The position numbers were made by a program, and so were the translations under genes. From Dehalococcoidia bacterium (GTDB lineage: Bacteria > Chloroflexota > Dehalococcoidia > JAUSIH01), in NCBI GenBank assembly GCA_030648205.1, contig JAUSIH010000020.1:1-52818 (forward strand): DNA of 52,818 nucleotides. The letters are read 5' to 3'. A model generated the notes under the pieces. The model made no database searches and was not told the DNA's origin. It was given only the letters and a program-made list of their open reading frames with translations. The first letter of the stretch is position 1, and each line of letters starts with the position of its first letter. Positions 11,567-35,702 of this stretch are shown piece by piece.

Positions 11567-12619
11567 CTATCGGGGCTTGGCGGGCCACGCGACGGGTCGC
11601 ATCACGGAGCGCGTATCACCGAAAGTCGGCATGACCGTCGTGTGGTAGTCTTCCGGCCCTCCCGCAACGAGGACAATGATGTCCTCGGCCTTTTTCGCAG
11701 GCTTTGCCAGTCCGGCGACGACGTTGCCTTTCGTCGTCCGTTCCGCCCGCCTGTTCATTTTGGCCTCGAGACCCTGGACGGGAATTCCAGCCTTCTCATA
11801 GATTCCTGCCTTAACCGCGGCTTTCGTGTAGCCCTCATCGGCGAGACGTATGGCGAGGCCTACGCTCGCGATAATCACCGGCTCACCACCGCCAAGCTGA
11901 ATATCGTTATGACCAATGTTTGAAAGGCTCTGCGCCAAGCACTCCAGCAGGTAGGGCGTCTTCATTTTGCCCAAGTTCAGGCTTATCGTCCCCTGGACAG
12001 CGACAACCGTGATCGCGCTGGCGCCTCTGGCAAAGCCCCGTTCAACGTGGTATGGCTCCCATGGACTCTGTGCCTCAGCCTCACCCAGACAGCATGTGTA
12101 CTTCCCGGGAAACCCCAGAATCGCCTTGTCCACCTCCTCCGGCACGCCGCCGCCAATGTTCAGGAGCAGCAGCCGGACGGCTCTGCCCAGCGTCGCGTTC
12201 GCGCGGTTTCCTGGGCCAAGGGCGTTACGCCCCGTATTCATTTTCAGGTCCTGGACTACGGGCCCGTTCACGATGACAAAGGGGCAACAAGGACTTGTCG
12301 TGGACTGGACGCCATCCAGATTGAAGGCTGGGTCAGCAAGGGCCTCCACTATCGCCAGAATGACGGGCATGTATTCCGGCATGCAGCCAGCCATGACGGC
12401 CTGGGCCGCAATCTTTTCCACGGTGGCCAGGCCCTTTTTCGGCCCGAGCACACCAACGATATCGGAACCCTGTCGCGAAGAACCATTGACCATTAGCTGC
12501 ACGCGCTCCTCGGTCGGCGGGACCACGGGCAGCCCATCTGTCCAGCCCTGGGCATAGGCATATTCGTTCACAGCCTCGAATGATGCGGGTAGCTCGATGA
12601 CTCGCGGTCTGGACGTCAT
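11567..12619 (-). CDS. Conserved partner protein of UGSC selenoprotein, copy 1
   Basis: 350 residues; GGAGAA lies about 6 nt before the ATG. It follows UGSC gene 1 by 58 nt and is homologous to the genes at 30339 and 34039, which hold the same position after UGSC genes 2 and 3. Motifs shared by all three: W[TI]DGLPxxPPTxxRV (residues 26-40), AVMAGC[ML]Pxx[MF]PV (conserved Cys79), GPGxRANATxGRA in the middle, and PWEPxHVERGF. There is no signal peptide or membrane helix, so it is probably cytoplasmic. I do not recognise a named enzyme family. The fixed pairing suggests it forms a complex with the selenoprotein, perhaps with Cys79 as a thiol partner (inference). Confidence 0.88.
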   Translation of the reverse strand: MTSRPRVIELPASFEAVNEYAYAQGWTDGLPVVPPTEERVQLMVNGSSRQGSDIVGVLGPKKGLATVEKIAAQAVMAGCMPEYMPVILAIVEALADPAFNLDGVQSTTSPCCPFVIVNGPVVQDLKMNTGRNALGPGNRANATLGRAVRLLLLNIGGGVPEEVDKAILGFPGKYTCCLGEAEAQSPWEPYHVERGFARGASAITVVAVQGTISLNLGKMKTPYLLECLAQSLSNIGHNDIQLGGGEPVIIASVGLAIRLADEGYTKAAVKAGIYEKAGIPVQGLEAKMNRRAERTTKGNVVAGLAKPAKKAEDIIVLVAGGPEDYHTTVMPTFGDTRSVMRPVAWPAKPR

Positions 12620-12677: not shown

Positions 12678-13238
12678 TCACGAAGTGATCGGCGGCTTCG
12701 CCGGTGCGCTCAAGCGATTCCGCACGTCGGGAAGGAGTTTCTCCGCCAAGGCGCGCAGGTCCGCCGGACTTCGCACCTCAACGTCCGCGGGCAGCACGAG
12801 CAACGTGAGGTTGGGGACTCCCCGCGCCCGCATAATAGATGTGGCAAGAGACACGAAGCGTTCAGTTACGAGCGTCACTGTGGGGACCCCGCGCTGCTCC
12901 AGCTCAACGCTGTCGTGGATACTCCACGTTGTGCAGGCGCCTCAGTTCCCCAGGCCGTTGATGACAAAATCACTGTCGCGCGCCAAATCGTCGAGCATCG
13001 CCTTCGGGGCGCCGATGCCGTCGCTTCTCTTCTCACAGAGGAGCGCCTGACTCACATCATCCCGCTGCTGCAGCAAGTCACGAAAGGCTGGCAGCAGGGT
13101 GTCCATGCTCCTCCAGCCGTTGTCCAGCAAGCCGATGCGTTTGCCACGCAACGTGTCGATACGCGGGGCCAGACTCGCCGGCTGACCACGTGTATCGACA
13201 TCTGCAATGGGATCAACGATACGCCATGTGGCTGTCAT
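12678..13238 (-). CDS. UGSC-family selenoprotein 1 (in-frame UGA at 12944-12942)
   Basis: 186 residues if the UGA is read as Sec99; strong AAGGAGG site before the ATG. Conventional calling breaks it into 98-residue and 66-residue pieces. The frame reads GLGN-U-GACTTWSIHD, then continues VELEQRGVPTVTLVTERF to a stop at 12678, so both sides of the UGA are one domain. The U-G-x-C-T motif is a redox UxxC and resembles the Sec site of glycine/proline reductase GrdB/PrdB. A hairpin starts 13 nt after the UGA. It follows a solute-binding protein and DppB-DppC genes and precedes its partner. UGSC-type proteins are known as occasional selenoproteins; their reaction is not established. Here x is Ala, not Ser. 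Confidence 0.88.
12914..12928 (-). promoter_or_regulatory. Bacterial SECIS-like hairpin of UGSC gene 1
   Basis: On the mRNA, CGTGG-AGTAT-CCACG forms a perfect 5-bp stem. It begins exactly 13 nt after the UGA, which puts the apical loop 18 nt downstream. The loop has G at its second position, as expected for SelB-recognised bacterial SECIS elements. The same position and loop occur in copies 2 and 3. Confidence 0.75.
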
Positions 13239-13308: not shown

Positions 13309-14205
13309 TCATTGACCCCGCAGGCGCGGGTCCATCTCGTCGCGCAGCGCGTCTCCCAGCATGTTAGCTGCGAAAACCGCCGTGGCGATTGCAACGCCGG
13401 GGGCAATGGTGAGCCACGGTGCGTCAAGCACGAATGTGCGGCCTGAGCCGGATAGCATCCCTCCCCATGTCGGGTTCGGCGGAGGAACCCCCACACCAAG
13501 AAAGCTGAGGCTCGCCTCCGTGATGATGGCCTGGGCGAGCTGAGCCGTCACAATAACAACGAACGGGCTGACCGCGCTGGGCGCCACGTGGTGAAAGATG
13601 ATACGGAACCTGCTGCACCCAATGGCTTTTGCCGCGTCCACAAAGGGGGTTGCGGATATGGCAATGGCGCTCGCCCGCACGACGCGATTGATCCGTGGCG
13701 TGATGACCGTGGCAATTGCCAATGTCACGATCAGCAGGGACGGCCCGAACACGGCCACGATCGCAAGCCCCAGCACCAGAGTCGGGAGGGCCATCATGGA
13801 GTCCATGAAACGCTGGATAACATCATCCGCCCAGCCGCCTACGTATGCGCCGACCAGTCCCAGTGTGCCTCCTATGACGCCACCAATCGCCACGGAGCTG
13901 AAGCCCACGGCAACCGTAATACGCGCGCCCCAGATAAGGCGGCTCAACACATCTCGGCCTGACTGGTCCGTGCCCAGTAGATGGCTCCACGACGGGGGCT
14001 GGCGCAGGACGCTTGCATCCATGACAACCGGGTCGTAAGCCGCCACGATGGGAGCCGCGACAGCGAGGACCAAATAGCCAAGCACAACAAGCGCACCCAG
14101 CGCACCCAGGGGCTTGCGCGCAAAGAACTTACCCACCCATCTTAGAGCGCCATGGGACTGGGTCCTCAGTGCGCCCCGCTTTTCCAGTGCTGACGTATAA
14201 CCCAT
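13309..14205 (-). CDS. ABC transporter permease, DppC/OppC type
   Basis: 298 residues from the ATG at 14205, which lies 7 nt after the upstream permease stop; a longer start would overlap that gene. It has the N-terminal OppC segment (KFFARKPLGALGALVV) and the marker HLLGTDQSGRDVLSRLIWGARI. The inner-membrane EAA-type loop is VDAAKAIGCSRFRIIFHHVAPSAV (long form, near residue 195), followed by SLSFLGVGVPPPNPTWGGML. It forms the channel of a peptide/nickel/opine-type importer with the DppB just upstream. No ATPase gene follows; UGSC gene 1 comes next instead. Confidence 0.95.
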   Translation of the reverse strand: MGYTSALEKRGALRTQSHGALRWVGKFFARKPLGALGALVVLGYLVLAVAAPIVAAYDPVVMDASVLRQPPSWSHLLGTDQSGRDVLSRLIWGARITVAVGFSSVAIGGVIGGTLGLVGAYVGGWADDVIQRFMDSMMALPTLVLGLAIVAVFGPSLLIVTLAIATVITPRINRVVRASAIAISATPFVDAAKAIGCSRFRIIFHHVAPSAVSPFVVIVTAQLAQAIITEASLSFLGVGVPPPNPTWGGMLSGSGRTFVLDAPWLTIAPGVAIATAVFAANMLGDALRDEMDPRLRGQ

Positions 14206-14212
14206 GCGTCTT

Positions 14213-15175
14213 TCAGCGAACTGATACTCTGGGATCCAGAAGGCCATACGCCACATCTATGAGCAGGTTAACCAGCAGCACTGACACACCAATGAGAAGG
14301 ATGAGGCCCTGGACGATGAAAATATCGCGCTGGACGACAGCTTCAACCAGCGCATTCCCGAGCCCGGGGAGGACGAATATGCGTTCAACGATGACCGCGC
14401 CGCTCATGAGGACGGCGAACAGAACGCCCACCAGCGCCACGATCGGCAGGAGAGCGTTGCGGAGGGCGTGTCGCAAGATCACGACCCGCTCCGCGAGGCC
14501 TTTCGACCGGGCCGTTCGCACGTAGTCCTCGCGCATGGTCTCCAGCATCTGGGCACGCGTCATGCGCGTGATGTACGCAGCGAAGGCGTAGCCAAGCACC
14601 AGCGAAGGCCAGATGAACTGAGATAGATTACCCAATGGGTCTTTCCAGAAAGACTCAACGAAAAACGAGGGCGGTAGCCAGTCAAAGATTGTAGCAAGGC
14701 CCAAGATCAGCAGGGTGCCCGTCCAAAAGGTCGGCATGGACAGCCCGGCGACGCTGGCGATACGCGCCAGGTGGTCAATCCAAGTGTCTCTGTAGATTGC
14801 GGCAATCACACCCAGCGGAACGCCCACGATAATAGCGATAAGTGTGGAGAGCAGCGCCACCTCCATGGTGACCATGCCGGTGCGGCCCACAATGTCCCAA
14901 ACGGTCTCGTCCCGGTAAAGCGAGCCGCCCAGGTCGCCGCGTAGGGCTCGCGCAAGCCAGTCCACATATTGCACGGTGACGGGCTGGTCCAATCCAAGTT
15001 TACCGCGCACAACGCGCGCATCCTCTTCTGAGACTCGTCCGCCTTCAGCGCCTCCCCCAAGGATCGTCGTGGTGACATCGCCGGGCATCACGCGCAATAG
15101 CGCAAATATGAAAATGGACAAGAACAGGATGCTTGGCACGACCTGTGCAAGCCTTGTGACAACATGTCGCCGCAT
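14213..15175 (-). CDS. ABC transporter permease, DppB/OppB type
   Basis: 320 residues from the ATG at 15175 (AAAGG upstream). Typical DppB features are the N-terminal helix LAQVVPSILFLSIFIFALLRVMPGD, LNLDQPVTVQYV-like LGLDQPVTVQYVDWL in the periplasmic loop, the YITRMTRAQMLETMREDYV and ARSKGLAERVVILRHALRNALLP coupling loops, and the C-terminal DVAYGLLDPRVS. It pairs with the DppC starting 7 nt downstream and with the lipoprotein encoded 120 nt upstream. Confidence 0.95.
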   Translation of the reverse strand: MRRHVVTRLAQVVPSILFLSIFIFALLRVMPGDVTTTILGGGAEGGRVSEEDARVVRGKLGLDQPVTVQYVDWLARALRGDLGGSLYRDETVWDIVGRTGMVTMEVALLSTLIAIIVGVPLGVIAAIYRDTWIDHLARIASVAGLSMPTFWTGTLLILGLATIFDWLPPSFFVESFWKDPLGNLSQFIWPSLVLGYAFAAYITRMTRAQMLETMREDYVRTARSKGLAERVVILRHALRNALLPIVALVGVLFAVLMSGAVIVERIFVLPGLGNALVEAVVQRDIFIVQGLILLIGVSVLLVNLLIDVAYGLLDPRVSVR

Positions 15176-15295
15176 GCCTTTGCTCTTCAGTACGGGAGCA
15201 GTACCAGGCGCCTCCCGTCGTTGCAGGCTGACACACAACCGTGAGGGCACGCGCCCCTGTGGGGTGGGCGCGTCACGAGCGAGATGGTGCTGAGC

Positions 15296-17104
15296 CTAGC
15301 GGGAGTCGGAGTCGCGCCACACGCGTTCGAATCTGTGGTTGTTGTGCGGGCCCCATCCCGGCTCGTAGTTCTTCACATGGTTCCAGTAAGCGTTGTAGGC
15401 GACCAGCCAATAGCTGGTGACGAACGGGGCCTCATTAATCAGCAAGTCCTCCAGCTCACGAATTGCCTTCGCCCGGAGGTCCTTGTTTTGCTCCTTCTCC
15501 TGGGCGAAATACAGGTCGCGCGACCGCTCATTGCCATAGTTGGTCTCGTTGTAGCCCGCCACATCGCCCTTTACGGGTGGCATCCAGTAGACGTTGCGGC
15601 CCACCGCATAGGCGTTCAGTGGGTTTGCGGCCACGACGGTCATGTCCATGTCACGACGCGCGCGCGTCAGATCAAACTTGGCTGTGTCCTCCAACGAAAT
15701 CGAGGCGCTGATACCCAGTTTTGTGGACAACTCGTTGGCGAAAAACTCGGCGCCAGATACATACGTGGTAAATCCGGCCCTCGTCCTGATAGTGGTCTTG
15801 AAGCCCTCCGGGTAGCCGGCTTCGGCCATTAGTTTCTTGGCCGTTCTGAGGTCTTCCTGACCACCCGGCGAGTCCTTGGGGCGAAATCCCGGGAGGCTGA
15901 GGTACGCCTGCTGAGAACGGGCGAATTGGCCGACGGGCGGAAACAGCGTGCCTACCTGACCTACGCCTTCGCCGAGGATGTTTATGGCCTTTTGCCGGTC
16001 CACGGCCAGGGAAATGGCGCGACGCACGCGGATATCATCAAAGGGCTTGCGGTTGTTGTTCATCATGAGCGTGACGGACTCGCCCCGGAAGAACGGTTTG
16101 ACTGCTATGGCGCGTCCCGAACGCTCAATCTGCTCCTTGTTGCTCCGCGAGAGCGCAATATTGCCTCCCGTCAGGTCTATACGACCAGCCAGTAGAGCGG
16201 CAACTTGAGTGCCGGCATCCTGTATTTCCACGATGCGTAGCTCGTCAATGTAAGGCATGCCCGTCCGAAAATAGTCTTTGTTCCTCTTCAGAATGGCGCC
16301 TACACCACGGCTGTATTGTTCCAAGCGGAACGGCCCTGTCCCAATGAACTTTGACACGCTGCTGATCTGCTGGTCTGGCTCAACAATATGCTTGGGCATG
16401 ACGTAGATGTTCCCGTGCGCAATCCAGTTGATGAATCCGTTCGACGGGTCCTTGAGCTGAAACTCCAACGTGCGCGGCCCGCGGGCTACAACGTCCTTGA
16501 CCATGGTGAACTCAGCCGCGCGATTACTCGCCTTGCCTGGCGGCGGCTGGAGCCACAGTTTCCACTTCGCCACTTCATCGTCAGCGGTGAACGACTTGCC
16601 GTCATGCCACTTGGCCTCGGTCAGTTGAAACGTGACTTTTGTCCCGTCCGGACTCACGTCCCAGCTTGTCGCAAGGTCCGCGATAATCTCGGTGTTGCTA
16701 GTGGGGTCATACTGGAGCAGTCCGTTATAGACAGGCGCCGCCAGGATCACAAGAGCGGAGCTTACCTGCCACAATGCATCCAGTGTGGGTGGGGGCGTGG
16801 GATTGATCTCTGTCACCATGCCACCCAGTTTTGGACGGGCGCTGTCGCCAGACGCGGCAGGAGTAGCAGGTATCGCCGTTGCGGCCGGGGAAGAAGGGCG
16901 ACTGGGTGAAGCCGGGACTGGCGTCGCCTGAGCCGTTTGAGTAGGGGCCGAGACCTGAGTCGGGAGAGGGCTGGAGGGTGCGCTAGGAGGTGTCGTTGGT
17001 GTGGCTGCTGGAGCACAGGCACTCAAGATAATGCTACCAGCAAGACAAACGGCCATGACTTTGATGAACGGGAGTCTGGCGCGTGAACCGACATTGCCTG
17101 GCAT
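15296..17104 (-). CDS. Family 5 extracellular solute-binding lipoprotein
   Basis: 602 residues from the ATG at 17104, preceded by GAGGGGGAG. A basic N-terminus, a hydrophobic segment and the lipobox LSAC are followed by a Thr/Pro/Ser-rich tether of about 70 residues. The SBP_bac_5 domain then shows LATSWDVSPDGTKVTFQL, KWHDGKSFTADDE, IGTGPFRLEQY and RVRRAISLAVDRQKAI. It captures peptides or other organic ligands at the cell surface for the DppBC permeases encoded directly downstream. Ligand unknown. It is the first gene after a 400-nt gap, so it may have its own promoter. Confidence 0.95.
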   Translation of the reverse strand: MPGNVGSRARLPFIKVMAVCLAGSIILSACAPAATPTTPPSAPSSPLPTQVSAPTQTAQATPVPASPSRPSSPAATAIPATPAASGDSARPKLGGMVTEINPTPPPTLDALWQVSSALVILAAPVYNGLLQYDPTSNTEIIADLATSWDVSPDGTKVTFQLTEAKWHDGKSFTADDEVAKWKLWLQPPPGKASNRAAEFTMVKDVVARGPRTLEFQLKDPSNGFINWIAHGNIYVMPKHIVEPDQQISSVSKFIGTGPFRLEQYSRGVGAILKRNKDYFRTGMPYIDELRIVEIQDAGTQVAALLAGRIDLTGGNIALSRSNKEQIERSGRAIAVKPFFRGESVTLMMNNNRKPFDDIRVRRAISLAVDRQKAINILGEGVGQVGTLFPPVGQFARSQQAYLSLPGFRPKDSPGGQEDLRTAKKLMAEAGYPEGFKTTIRTRAGFTTYVSGAEFFANELSTKLGISASISLEDTAKFDLTRARRDMDMTVVAANPLNAYAVGRNVYWMPPVKGDVAGYNETNYGNERSRDLYFAQEKEQNKDLRAKAIRELEDLLINEAPFVTSYWLVAYNAYWNHVKNYEPGWGPHNNHRFERVWRDSDSR

Positions 17105-17506
17105 ATTCTCCCCCTCGTGTAGCCATTCGGATCCGCGATACGCGAACCCTGCGGCAAGCAATACGTGCCGTGGAATGTATCACGGCTTGCACCACTACGT
17201 CAACAAGCGGCCTCAAGATGCGAAGGGGCTTCCGGCGAAGTTTACGTTGAGGCCCATCGGGGCGCCGCAACGCCCCGGCTCGTCCCTTTTCCTCCACCAA
17301 CGCCTCAATATCGGGCCTCAGACAGGGCACTGGACCCCGGTCGATTGTACCTGCGCAACCAGCGACGGTTGACAGTCTACTACAAAGGGACTCCCTGTTG
17401 GTCAGATGCAAGAGTATTGCTAGAGGCTACGCGGGCTCTTGCCATACTCTTTCTGACCATCGCTTTCTTCGCCGAGGCGGGTCTCTAGTCCCCCAAAGCA
17501 AGCCCG
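17105..17506. other. Gap within the minus-strand cluster
   Basis: No convincing gene. On the minus strand a TACAAT box (17349-17344) lacks a good -35 partner, and CCGTG-ATACATTC-CACGG (17185-17168) can form a small hairpin in the leader of the downstream solute-binding protein. This is the only break longer than about 250 bp inside the 24-kb cluster, so it may separate two transcription units. Confidence 0.5.
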
Positions 17507-30338: not shown

Positions 30339-31373
30339 TCAAGAGGGAATGCGTCTCGTAACGGCAAAGGCCATGCCAAGAGTGTGACACGCCACCGAAT
30401 GGTATCCGCCATGCCCGCCGGCCACAACGATCAGAAACTGGTCAGCCCGAGCCGCCAGCCGAACATAGTCACCCTGGATTTGGTCTGGGACACCAGCCCG
30501 CATTGACTCGAGCCGGGGCGGAGGGAACCACGACGCGGGCATTTTGCTCGTTAATTCGAGCAGACGTTCTTTGGCCTGCTGCTTGGAAAAGTCCTGAGCG
30601 ATCAGCGCCGCATGATCAGGGCACAAGATTATCACTATCTCACCGTAACCATAGCGAATAAACACGTTGTTGCTGCCGATGACCTCCATCGAATGGGCGA
30701 GCGTCATGAGCATATGCTCGGCGCGCTTGCTGTCCTTGTCATGCACGTTTATCGTACCTGTGGGCGCCGCCACAGTTACCGTACTGTCCTCGGCCTTGAA
30801 ACCGCGCTCGACATGCAACGGCTCCCACGGGTTTTTCTCTTCATACTCTCCGAGGCAAAAACTATAGCGGCCGGGTTGAGAGTGGGTGGATTTGGAGACT
30901 TTTCCTGGAACGCGGCCCGCCAGGTTGATCATGGCGAGGCTGACTGCCCGACCTATAGTTGCGTTGGCGCGGTTCCCTGGACCGAGAACGCTCCATGAGC
31001 AGTTGATATCCAGTTTGGCCCGAATAGGCCCATTTATTATCAGCATGGGAGCAGATGGGTTTGTCGAAGTGTTCATCATGAGCAATGCATATTTAGGATC
31101 GGTGAGCGCCTCAATAGCCGTCACCACCACGGGGAAGTACTGCGGCAGGCACCCCGCCATGACGGCATTGACCGCCAACGCTTCGATAGTAGCGGCAGCA
31201 CGCCTGGGGGGTAACTCAGCGACTACTTCCTGCGGCGAACGTGGCACACTCGCCATCATTTTCTCGACGCGGTCGGCCGTCGGGGGTATGATCGGCAGGC
31301 CGTCGGTCCATCCGCGTTCATATGCCCAGGCATAGACGTCATCAATGGACCCGAGTAGCTCATGGACATCCAT
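30339..31373 (-). CDS. Conserved partner protein of UGSC selenoprotein, copy 2
   Basis: 344 residues from the ATG at 31373. A GAGG site overlaps the stop codon of UGSC gene 2, only 7 nt upstream, which argues for translational coupling and rules out the longer frame starting at 31439. It shares with copies 1 and 3 the GWTDGLPIIPPT stretch (residues 21-32), NAVMAGCLPQYFPV with Cys75, GPGNRANATIGRA and KNPWEPLHVERGF. The C-terminus has a Gly-rich VVAGGHGGYHSV, also seen in copy 3 (VAGGNGGLHSL). Probably cytoplasmic; function unknown. Confidence 0.88.
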   Translation of the reverse strand: MDVHELLGSIDDVYAWAYERGWTDGLPIIPPTADRVEKMMASVPRSPQEVVAELPPRRAAATIEALAVNAVMAGCLPQYFPVVVTAIEALTDPKYALLMMNTSTNPSAPMLIINGPIRAKLDINCSWSVLGPGNRANATIGRAVSLAMINLAGRVPGKVSKSTHSQPGRYSFCLGEYEEKNPWEPLHVERGFKAEDSTVTVAAPTGTINVHDKDSKRAEHMLMTLAHSMEVIGSNNVFIRYGYGEIVIILCPDHAALIAQDFSKQQAKERLLELTSKMPASWFPPPRLESMRAGVPDQIQGDYVRLAARADQFLIVVAGGHGGYHSVACHTLGMAFAVTRRIPS

Positions 31374-31380
31374 AGGCTTG

Positions 31381-31983
31381 TTACCTCTTTCGCGCGGGAA
31401 TCTCACGCCCACGGCAGGCGGCGCGTATGATCTCGTCAAACTTCGCCTCGGCGATGGACCGCACCTCCGCTACTGAAAGCGTCTCAAAGGGGTGGGGCAC
31501 AACGACCATGGGCAAATCCGGATAACCTAACGACTTCGCGCAGCTATCCGCGAGATTTTTAAAAGCCTCCGCGACAATCGACACAGTAGGAATTCCCCGC
31601 TTCTCGACCTCGACGGCGTCGTGGATACACCACGCTGTGCAGCCTCCTCAGCCGGCCAGACCAATCACAGCCCAATCACAACCGGAAGCGAATGCGTCGA
31701 ACTGTTTGGGCAGAGTGACCTGGTCTCGCCTGCTGCGGAGAGCCACATCTACGCGCCACGTTTTCTCGAGGTTCCATTCGTGTATTCCCGCGGGGTGCTC
31801 CCGCGCCAAGAGTAACTCCTTGAAGCGTGCCATAAACACATCAAAGTTGGACCATTGAATCCGGAAACCGGCAGTCTTACCGGCGACGGTGTCAAGCCGT
31901 GGCGACAGCTTGTGCCTGACAACATGTGTCTGGCCTGACGGATCAATAAGACGCCAGAGCACCTGTTCCCCAGTCGGGTTCAT
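31381..31983 (-). CDS. UGSC-family selenoprotein 2 (in-frame UGA at 31650-31648)
   Basis: 200 residues if the UGA is Sec112; a GAGGAGG site precedes the ATG. The codons read VIGLAG-U-GGCTAWCIHDAVE, then KRGIPTVSIVAEAF and on to a TAA at 31381. The downstream half holds FEKL-like VVPHPFETLSVAEV, matching VLPHPFETLPPDV in copy 3. Because the region after the UGA is plainly the same domain as in copies 1 and 3, an independent second gene is unlikely. The hairpin at 31634-31620 is the SECIS candidate. It precedes its partner by 7 nt and follows a solute-binding protein. Confidence 0.88.
31620..31634 (-). promoter_or_regulatory. Bacterial SECIS-like hairpin of UGSC gene 2
   Basis: On the mRNA, CGTGG-TGTAT-CCACG, a perfect 5-bp stem that begins 13 nt after the UGA. 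The second loop nucleotide is G. The position is identical to the other two copies. Confidence 0.75.
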
Positions 31984-34038: not shown

Positions 34039-35070
34039 CTACTCGCGGATAAGTCGAGTTACCATCGCCGAATTACTTAGACTCGGTAGGAACAAGGAGT
34101 GCAGGCCTCCATTGCCGCCGGCAACGGCGATGATGAAACTATCAGGGCTCGGCGCTCCTTGGACAGTACCCTCAAACACTCTCCCATCTTTGATGAAGTG
34201 TTCTTGCTCTGGTTTTGAGAAGTCGGTCAGCGGAATACGTTTCGTATGCTCAAACAGAAACTCTCGTAGGGACTGCTTGGAATACCCATCACGATGCATG
34301 ATAGCTGCATGGTCCGGGTTCAGGACTACAAGATTCCTGCCTTTGTGTTTACGAACGACGTGTATACTTGGCCAGTGCATAGCCGATGACAATGTGGTCA
34401 AGATGTCTTCTGCTGTCCGACTCCAAATATCTGAGACGTTACAGAAACTTGAAACGCCCAAAATAGAAATGGTGCTATCCCCTGGGCGAAAACCGCGCTC
34501 CACATGCAACGGCTCCCACGGGTTTTTCTCCTCGTTCTCTCCAATAACCCCGGTATACCGCCAGGGAGAACCCATAGTTGACTTGGAAACCGCTTCTGGG
34601 ACTGATCCTGCTATGTTCAATTGAATGAAGCGGATCGCTCGACCAATCGTCGCGTTTGCACGCCACCCTGGCCCAAAGCATCCATAGCTGCCATTGATCT
34701 CAAGCTTGTGGCGGATTGGACCATTGACGATGGATATTAGTCCTACCGAATTCGTGGTCGTGTTCACGTAGTACATGCCCAAAGCGGGATCCGCCATAGC
34801 CTCGGCAGCAGCGATGACTACGGGGAAGTAGGATGGCAGACATCCAGCCATCACCGCGTTCACAGCTAAGCACTCTAAAGTAGCCTCGCCGTTCTGCGGC
34901 TCAAGTTGTGTGATGACCTTCTCAGGTGGTCTGTTACCTAACATCTGTATCACTCTGTCTTCCGTAGGTGGCACTATAGGGAGACCGTCAATCCAATTCT
35001 GGGAACATGCAAATGCATAGATATCATCATACGAATCCTTCACAATTACGCGTTCAACAGGAGAAGGCAT
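34039..35070 (-). CDS. Conserved partner protein of UGSC selenoprotein, copy 3
   Basis: 343 residues. Shared family motifs are NWIDGLPIVPPTEDRV (residues 25-40), NAVMAGCLPSYFPV with Cys77, GPGWRANATIGRA, ENEEKNPWEPLHVERGF and the C-terminal VAGGNGGLHSL. It follows UGSC gene 3 by 53 nt and precedes a solute-binding lipoprotein by 54 nt. With the other two copies it shows that the selenoprotein/partner order is fixed. No catalytic family is recognised. The ATG has only a weak upstream GGAG. Confidence 0.87.
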   Translation of the reverse strand: MPSPVERVIVKDSYDDIYAFACSQNWIDGLPIVPPTEDRVIQMLGNRPPEKVITQLEPQNGEATLECLAVNAVMAGCLPSYFPVVIAAAEAMADPALGMYYVNTTTNSVGLISIVNGPIRHKLEINGSYGCFGPGWRANATIGRAIRFIQLNIAGSVPEAVSKSTMGSPWRYTGVIGENEEKNPWEPLHVERGFRPGDSTISILGVSSFCNVSDIWSRTAEDILTTLSSAMHWPSIHVVRKHKGRNLVVLNPDHAAIMHRDGYSKQSLREFLFEHTKRIPLTDFSKPEQEHFIKDGRVFEGTVQGAPSPDSFIIAVAGGNGGLHSLFLPSLSNSAMVTRLIRE

Positions 35071-35123: not shown

Positions 35124-35702
35124 TTACTGCGACACTACCGGAAGCGTCTTACGATGGGTTGTCAATGTATCGACGATCTGCCGGAGTTGTTCGTCAGCCA
35201 TGTGTGTCGCCACATCCGGGGGGAGCGTTTCAAATGGGTGCGGCAAGACAACGAAAGGGATATCAGGCCACCCTCGCCCTCGCGCACACGCCCTCCCCAA
35301 CCCTTCGAACTCTTTCGTTACGACCGCGACGACAGGTATCCCGGCTTTTTCCAGACGTACGGCATCGGAGATACACCCCGCAGTGCATGCGCCTCAAGCG
35401 CCCAAGCCGACGATAGCGGTATCGATTTGTGTGACAAAGGCGTTCCAGTCTGTATCGCTGATGCGATTCCACTTGTTGGAGGTTGCGTCCGCGCCGGCAA
35501 GTCGGGCCACATGTGCTACACCAATTTCCGTACGCAGCAGCTCTTCCAGCCGATCAGCAAAACGTCCGTAATTAGCCCATAGAAAGTTATCCCAAATACC
35601 CACACGCATCCCCCTCAAAGTGCTGAGGCGGTCGTTTAGTCTATGACTGGCCTTTTGGAGAACGGGCACGGGACTGAGTAAGACAGTCGTGCGCTCAAGC
35701 AT
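35124..35702 (-). CDS. UGSC-family selenoprotein 3 (in-frame UGA at 35396-35394)
   Basis: 192 residues if the UGA is Sec103; GGAGAG lies about 6 nt before the ATG. The frame is AIVGLGA-U-GACTAGCISDAV, then RLEKAGIPVVAVVTKEFEGLG, PFVVLPHPFETLPP and a TAA at 35126-35124, with no other stop. Conventional ORF calling sees only the first 102 residues and loses the rest. It shares the domain layout of copies 1 and 2, including an N-terminal segment with RLxTLRGMRVGIWDN (compare IDTLRGKRIGLLDN in copy 1). It is the first gene of the 24-kb cluster and has a good promoter at 35790-35762. Confidence 0.88.
35366..35380 (-). promoter_or_regulatory. Bacterial SECIS-like hairpin of UGSC gene 3
   Basis: On the mRNA, CGGGG-TGTAT-CTCCG, 13 nt after the UGA. 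Relative to copies 1 and 2, a U-A pair has become G-C and a G-C pair has become G-U. The stem is kept although two encoded residues change (Trp to Gly and His to Ser). Confidence 0.77.

Follow-up and report, generated by a model that had tools for sequence, protein, structure and literature searches.

Does the TGA codon inside the gene at 12678..13238 mark the end of a broken reading frame, or does it encode selenocysteine (Sec) in a working protein, and if so, what might that protein do? The window, i.e. the whole stretch of 52,818 nucleotides that was analysed, belongs to a metagenome-assembled genome (MAG) of a Dehalococcoidia bacterium (2.69 Mb, 95% complete, 0.95% contamination), referred to below as the host genome.

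The gene and its family

On the minus strand, the frame runs from an ATG at 13238 through the inner TGA at 12944-12942 to a TGA at 12680-12678 without any other stop, and the ribosome site AGAAGGAGG lies shortly 5′ of the ATG. This confirms, to the base, what a first-pass annotation made from the letters alone had described as a frame with a strong ribosome site that is broken only by this TGA. The read-through sequence around the codon is ...VINGLGN-U-GACTTWSIHD..., and the two features in question are:

12678..13238, minus strand: UGSC-family selenoprotein gene (186 aa, Sec as residue 99, stop TGA at 12680-12678)
12942..12944, minus strand: in-frame UGA decoded as selenocysteine, opening U-G-A-C (same column in 41 of the 41 TGA-containing copies of the genome)

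The sequences on both sides of the UGA had been assigned to a single domain, and indeed the read-through protein matches the Pfam family UGSC (PF24696) across the codon, over residues 7-177 and profile positions 2-171 of 172 (148.8 bits against a curated score of 25, E 2.2e-43). Against the NCBIfam equivalog NF041046 (UGSC_fam) it scores 106.2 bits, under the cut-off of 125, and the gene is assigned to PF24696 only. With Sec at the UGA, the UxxC redox motif foreseen in the first-pass annotation is found as U-G-A-C at residues 99-102, Sec being its first residue.

Decoding of the UGA as selenocysteine

The machinery by which a selenoprotein reading was to be checked is present in full in the host genome: selA (564 bits), selB (351 bits) and selD (366 bits) are full length and above their profile cut-offs, and there is a tRNA-Sec with anticodon TCA (UCA in the RNA). 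The selD gene itself carries one in-frame UGA at the classical position (CAGUAAK). A second tRNA-Sec candidate (on C40) proved to be a tRNA-Ser. UGSC genes are also found less than 2 kb from the tRNA-Sec (C102:18137-18230) and from selA (C1:29744-31084).

The host genome holds 46 PF24696 matches, 41 of them with exactly one TGA, and in every one of these 41 the inner TGA is the U of UG[S/G/A/V]C (UGSC 27, UGGC 8, UGAC 5, UGVC 1). The observation that the third motif residue of gene 12678..13238 is Ala, not the Ser of the family name, is thus true and describes an ordinary state; Ser is not required, because this residue varies across the family. Identity among the copies is higher after the UGA (34.5%) than before it (22.9%), and therefore the part 3′ of the codon is translated and selected. 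Almost every UGSC gene in partner-bearing loci of Chloroflexota, Proteobacteria, Rokubacteria and Entotheonella has UGA at the site, and Cys homologues (CGSC) occur in Natrialba (L100), Sphingomonas/Sphingomonadales (L101, L118) and locus L135. Sec or Cys is retained in the homologues checked, save a few fused copies without the motif.

Bacterial SECIS elements are hairpins placed close 3′ of the UGA, and such a hairpin is found in gene 12678..13238:

12914..12928, minus strand: bacterial SECIS-like hairpin CGTGGA-GTA-TCCACG (16-30 nt past the first base of the UGA)

Across the 41 copies of the host genome, the sequence at this place folds with a lower free energy than its synonymous recodings do (mean z of -0.65; p 2e-5 by Wilcoxon test); five control offsets show smaller shifts, with a mean z between -0.04 and -0.31. 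More specifically, the pair between offsets 17 and 29, both third codon positions, is formed in 36/41 copies against 26 expected, and it appears as GC, CG, AT and GT, i.e. with compensatory change at wobble positions. In JACPQD01, a relative of the same class (Chloroflexi, groundwater, 5 Mb MAG), the pair is formed in 146 of 156 copies (80 expected), and two control pairs are likewise above chance there; the pairing in the host genome is the cleaner test, because relatedness inflates counts and these two control pairs exceed chance.

A true stop at 12944-12942, whether from a pseudogene, a split gene or an assembly error, would account for a stop codon in the frame, and the sequence of a MAG may hold errors. 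It is nevertheless very improbable, given that the same codon recurs at the same motif in all 41 copies and, across several phyla, in almost every relative, that the half after it is the better conserved one, and that a full Sec machinery and hairpin covariation accompany it. Reassignment of UGA throughout the genome to, e.g., Trp or Gly, which occurs in other lineages, can practically be dismissed, since TGA terminates this gene and five other copies, no TGA-containing copy has more than one inner TGA, the alternative residue at the site is Cys, and tRNA-Sec, selA, selB and selD are all in the genome. Six lines (the machinery, the UGA of selD, the 41/41 site, the other phyla with their Cys forms, the hairpin and the downstream identity) concur on Sec. 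Insertion of Sec at UGA 12944-12942 is close to certain, and the selenoprotein reading of the first-pass annotation is supported: the gene is a genuine UGSC selenoprotein, a new member of a known family.

A near-constant partner protein

The first-pass annotation had not noticed an expansion to about 40 copies, a near-obligate partner gene and a predicted fold that is not thioredoxin-like. Three UGSC-partner pairs lie in the window, among genes of importer and CoA-transferase type:

11567..12619, minus strand: partner gene (350 aa, invariant Cys79; no family in Pfam or NCBIfam; other copies occur as a fusion with UGSC)
31384..31950, minus strand: UGSC selenoprotein gene of the second pair (a single in-frame TGA, at a UGGC motif)
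30339..31439, minus strand: partner gene of the second pair (from the partner search)
35127..35681, minus strand: UGSC selenoprotein gene of the third pair (a single in-frame TGA, at a UGAC motif)
34039..35070, minus strand: partner gene of the third pair (from the partner search)

The partner at 11567..12619 had no Pfam or NCBIfam match in the profile search; an iterated search of the fetched loci gave 52 partner hits. In the host genome, 35 of the 37 stand-alone UGSC genes have a partner gene on the same strand at most 400 nt away, and nine copies are fused UGSC-partner chains, so that pairing and fusion are directly visible in the computed data. Because the two proteins also occur as one fused chain, the UGSC protein and its partner of about 350 residues very likely form a two-subunit enzyme; the joint claim, that Sec is inserted and that the product belongs to such an enzyme, is held to be highly probable. 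Residues that are invariant or nearly so in the partner include D28, G29, P31, P35, C79 (in VMAGC) and G119-P120, as well as N141, R146, E180, W187 and G320. We infer that the 'Unknown_1' domain described in the GOS study of 2008 (PMC2398784) is probably this partner.

The Sec motif has been lost from the UGSC half of three fused copies of the host genome (C16:17933-18349, C43:1739-2233 and C14:12468-12986) and of five fused copies in JACPQD01. The three in the host genome keep the invariant partner residues examined, and the partner may therefore have an activity that is independent of Sec.

The partner family has several hundred members in Bacteria and an archaeon, with neither a Pfam model nor a recognisable PDB relative, and probably merits a new family entry and a structure. 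Four of the MAG records (L089, L095, L104 and L136) are named 'Bordetella parapertussis'; their UGSC-partner genes resemble those of freshwater betaproteobacteria, and the names look misassigned.

Predicted fold and remote similarity

The UGSC protein is modelled (pLDDT 94, pTM 0.87) as a domain of alternating beta-alpha order, in which Sec is predicted to lie between a strand (91-97) and a helix (100-115). Its best PDB neighbours, at modest TM, have flavodoxin-like, response-regulator (REC), SIS and P-loop folds, and no thioredoxin fold is among the 50 best PDB structure matches; the domain is thus predicted to be flavodoxin/Rossmann-like, not thioredoxin. A model of a fused UGSC-partner chain (pTM 0.91, mean pLDDT 91.9) fits a defined joint arrangement of the two parts. 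When this model was searched with Foldseek, the lengths of the PDB hits corresponded only to the UGSC-like domain, giving no recognisable PDB relative for the partner, and sequence searches of the PDB with the UGSC and partner profiles gave no meaningful match.

These results bear on the proposal that UGSC is an antioxidant thiol or selenol oxidoreductase, similar to thioredoxins or peroxiredoxins, and that its copies are paralogues for redox defence. UxxC is indeed a redox motif, and a thioredoxin-like fold was assumed for UGSC in the GOS study (PMC2398784). The predicted fold does not agree with this, however, and a dedicated partner in neighbourhoods of transporters and CoA-transferases fits catabolism better, which makes redox defence an unlikely function, though the most credible of the competing readings.

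A remote similarity between the UGSC domain and the Sec domain of the glycine and proline reductases is suggested by a single profile comparison, made with 5 GRDB-type sequences. Over 72 columns, hhalign aligns the two Sec residues and gives 87.5%; the value is 30% when the CGxC motif is masked and 0.1-6% for unrelated control families. At the level of Pfam, no direct match to PF07355 was seen for 70 members at E<=5 (best 25 of 33 families). A kinship of the partner with GrdE/PrdA was tried and ruled out (hhalign 0.4%).

Copy number in the host genome and in JACPQD01

Among 301 genomes sampled evenly across the phylum, 33 have the family, mostly with 1 to 8 copies (at most 11 candidates were scored per genome). 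The roughly 41 Sec copies of one family in 2.7 Mb are far beyond this norm; the selenoprotein count of the host genome covers UGSC and SelD. In JACPQD01, all 150 UGSC candidates scored were matches, and reading the DNA gave UGA at the motif in 156 copies (UGSC 65, UGAC 33, UGGC 30, UGTC 21 and others, including one UGTU). Five more copies lie on other contigs, and the number of UGSC genes with UGA is therefore at least 161. The UGTU copy (L155, C101, offset 5684, minus strand) has UGA at both redox positions and is a possible double-Sec site. JACPQD01 has a full-length selB; its tRNA-Sec was not found among the 150 of 734 candidates scored or by ARAGORN over about 1.5 of the 5 Mb, and either lies in unsearched DNA, is absent from the MAG or is divergent.

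High copy numbers could in principle arise if the MAGs combined several strains. JACPQD01 is estimated to be 7% contaminated, and a recent review voices the same caution for a MAG with 63 selenoprotein genes (PMC13188914). Against this, nearest paralogues are 34-68% identical in the host genome, with its 0.95% contamination, and its copies are spread over 29 separate clades of the family tree; in JACPQD01 the median identity of nearest paralogues is 70%, and values of at least 90% occur in only 2 of the 161 sequences compared. Such an artefact is quite improbable, and the expansion itself stands as a computed result. In the family tree, the scattered set of the host genome is old and diverse; the copies of JACPQD01 include large clades particular to that genome, which mark a more recent radiation.

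Gene neighbourhood and a proposed enzyme

Upstream of the first pair lie the components of an importer:

13309..14256, minus strand: Dpp/Opp-type ABC permease, upstream of the pair (profile match)
14213..15250, minus strand: second Dpp/Opp-type ABC permease (similarity group c5)
15296..17161, minus strand: family-5 solute-binding protein (SBP_bac_5) belonging to this importer (profile match)

Raw counts in the UGSC loci include 25 SBP_bac_5 proteins, 19 CoA-transferases of family III, 17 Dpp-type permeases, 8 luciferase-like monooxygenases and 6 enoyl-CoA hydratases, which suggests that these loci serve to import and degrade a wide range of small organic molecules, and that the two-subunit protein may be a selenol-dependent catabolic enzyme diversified over many substrates. 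The density of importers in the window is unusual in itself: between 15296 and 47142 there are six SBP_bac_5-type binding proteins with permeases and four CoA-transferase III genes. SAR202, another group of Chloroflexota, is known for expanded paralogues of catabolic enzymes (PMC10444878).

A mechanism can be proposed along the following lines. After insertion through SelA, SelB, SelD, tRNA-Sec and the hairpin just 3′ of the UGA, Sec would sit at the tip of the flavodoxin/Rossmann-like domain and attack or reduce a substrate that would be held mainly by the partner, through its invariant Asp28, Cys79, Asn141, Arg146, Glu180 and Trp187; the Cys of UxxC may then resolve the selenenyl intermediate, as is assumed to happen in the Sec domain of glycine and proline reductases. 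A reductive step that depends on Sec is proposed because of the profile link to GRDB and because the Sec subunit of those reductases takes part in the reductive C-N cleavage of a bound amino acid (PMC13188914). The pyruvoyl step is not transferable, because the partner is unrelated to the GrdE/PrdA subunit, and for the same reason its way of holding the substrate must differ. Each UGSC-partner pair may act on a different small organic molecule, many of which ABC importers of the peptide/opine type would take up, with CoA-transferase and hydratase steps following.

The joint active site, the reductive chemistry and the range of substrates are what we infer from these data. Chemistry like that of GrdB/PrdB is a tentative analogy, rather doubtful on present evidence. 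The full picture, in which UGSC and its partner radiated in Chloroflexota to between 40 and more than 160 Sec paralogues per genome, forming the largest selenoproteome of any organism and using Sec for the reductive cleavage of bonds in diverse molecules together with a partner of new fold, is somewhat better placed, a serious possibility that still falls short of probable.

Selenoproteins of the UGSC family rank with the most common ones in natural waters, and their near-constant partner, fused forms and transporter neighbourhoods make their function directly testable. Sec is costly and normally confined to few proteins per cell; tens to more than a hundred paralogues of a single enzyme upend the supposed limits. 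Moreover, standard annotation tends to split UGA-containing genes, and whole enzyme systems have therefore probably been missed.

Comparison with known systems

The protein shares with the named UGSC family (PF24696; NF041046; PMC2398784) the domain and the position of Sec in UxxC, mostly with Sec over Cys, and a fusion of UGSC to 'Unknown_1' was already seen in 2008 (Zhang and Gladyshev, PMC2398784). It differs in having Ala for Ser in the motif, in its NF041046 score (106 versus 125 bits), in the roughly 41 paralogues of one genome, in the tie of nearly every copy to a partner gene and in a predicted fold that is not thioredoxin-like. No report of UGSC expansions in Chloroflexota or SAR202 was found in the open-access literature.

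The Sec domain of GrdB/PrdB (PF07355), from glycine and D-proline reductase, is alike in the surroundings of Sec, which has a hydrophobic strand before it and G-x-C with a stretch similar to 'IExxGIPTV' after it, and also in acting with a second subunit. UGSC differs from it in the lack of a direct Pfam match and in a partner unrelated to GrdE/PrdA (PF09338). Neither PF07355 nor PF09338 was found in the host genome, and PF09338 is absent from JACPQD01 as well.

As regards selenoproteome size, the largest published bacterial sets are those of the Olavius delta-1 symbiont (57) and a Methylomirabilota MAG (63; both PMC13188914), and the largest published for any organism is that of Emiliania huxleyi, with 96 (PMC7539508). 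The genomes described here resemble the two bacterial cases in having a very large selenoproteome, but differ in that one family alone accounts for the count; with at least 161 genes, that of JACPQD01 would be the largest selenocysteine gene set reported in any organism.
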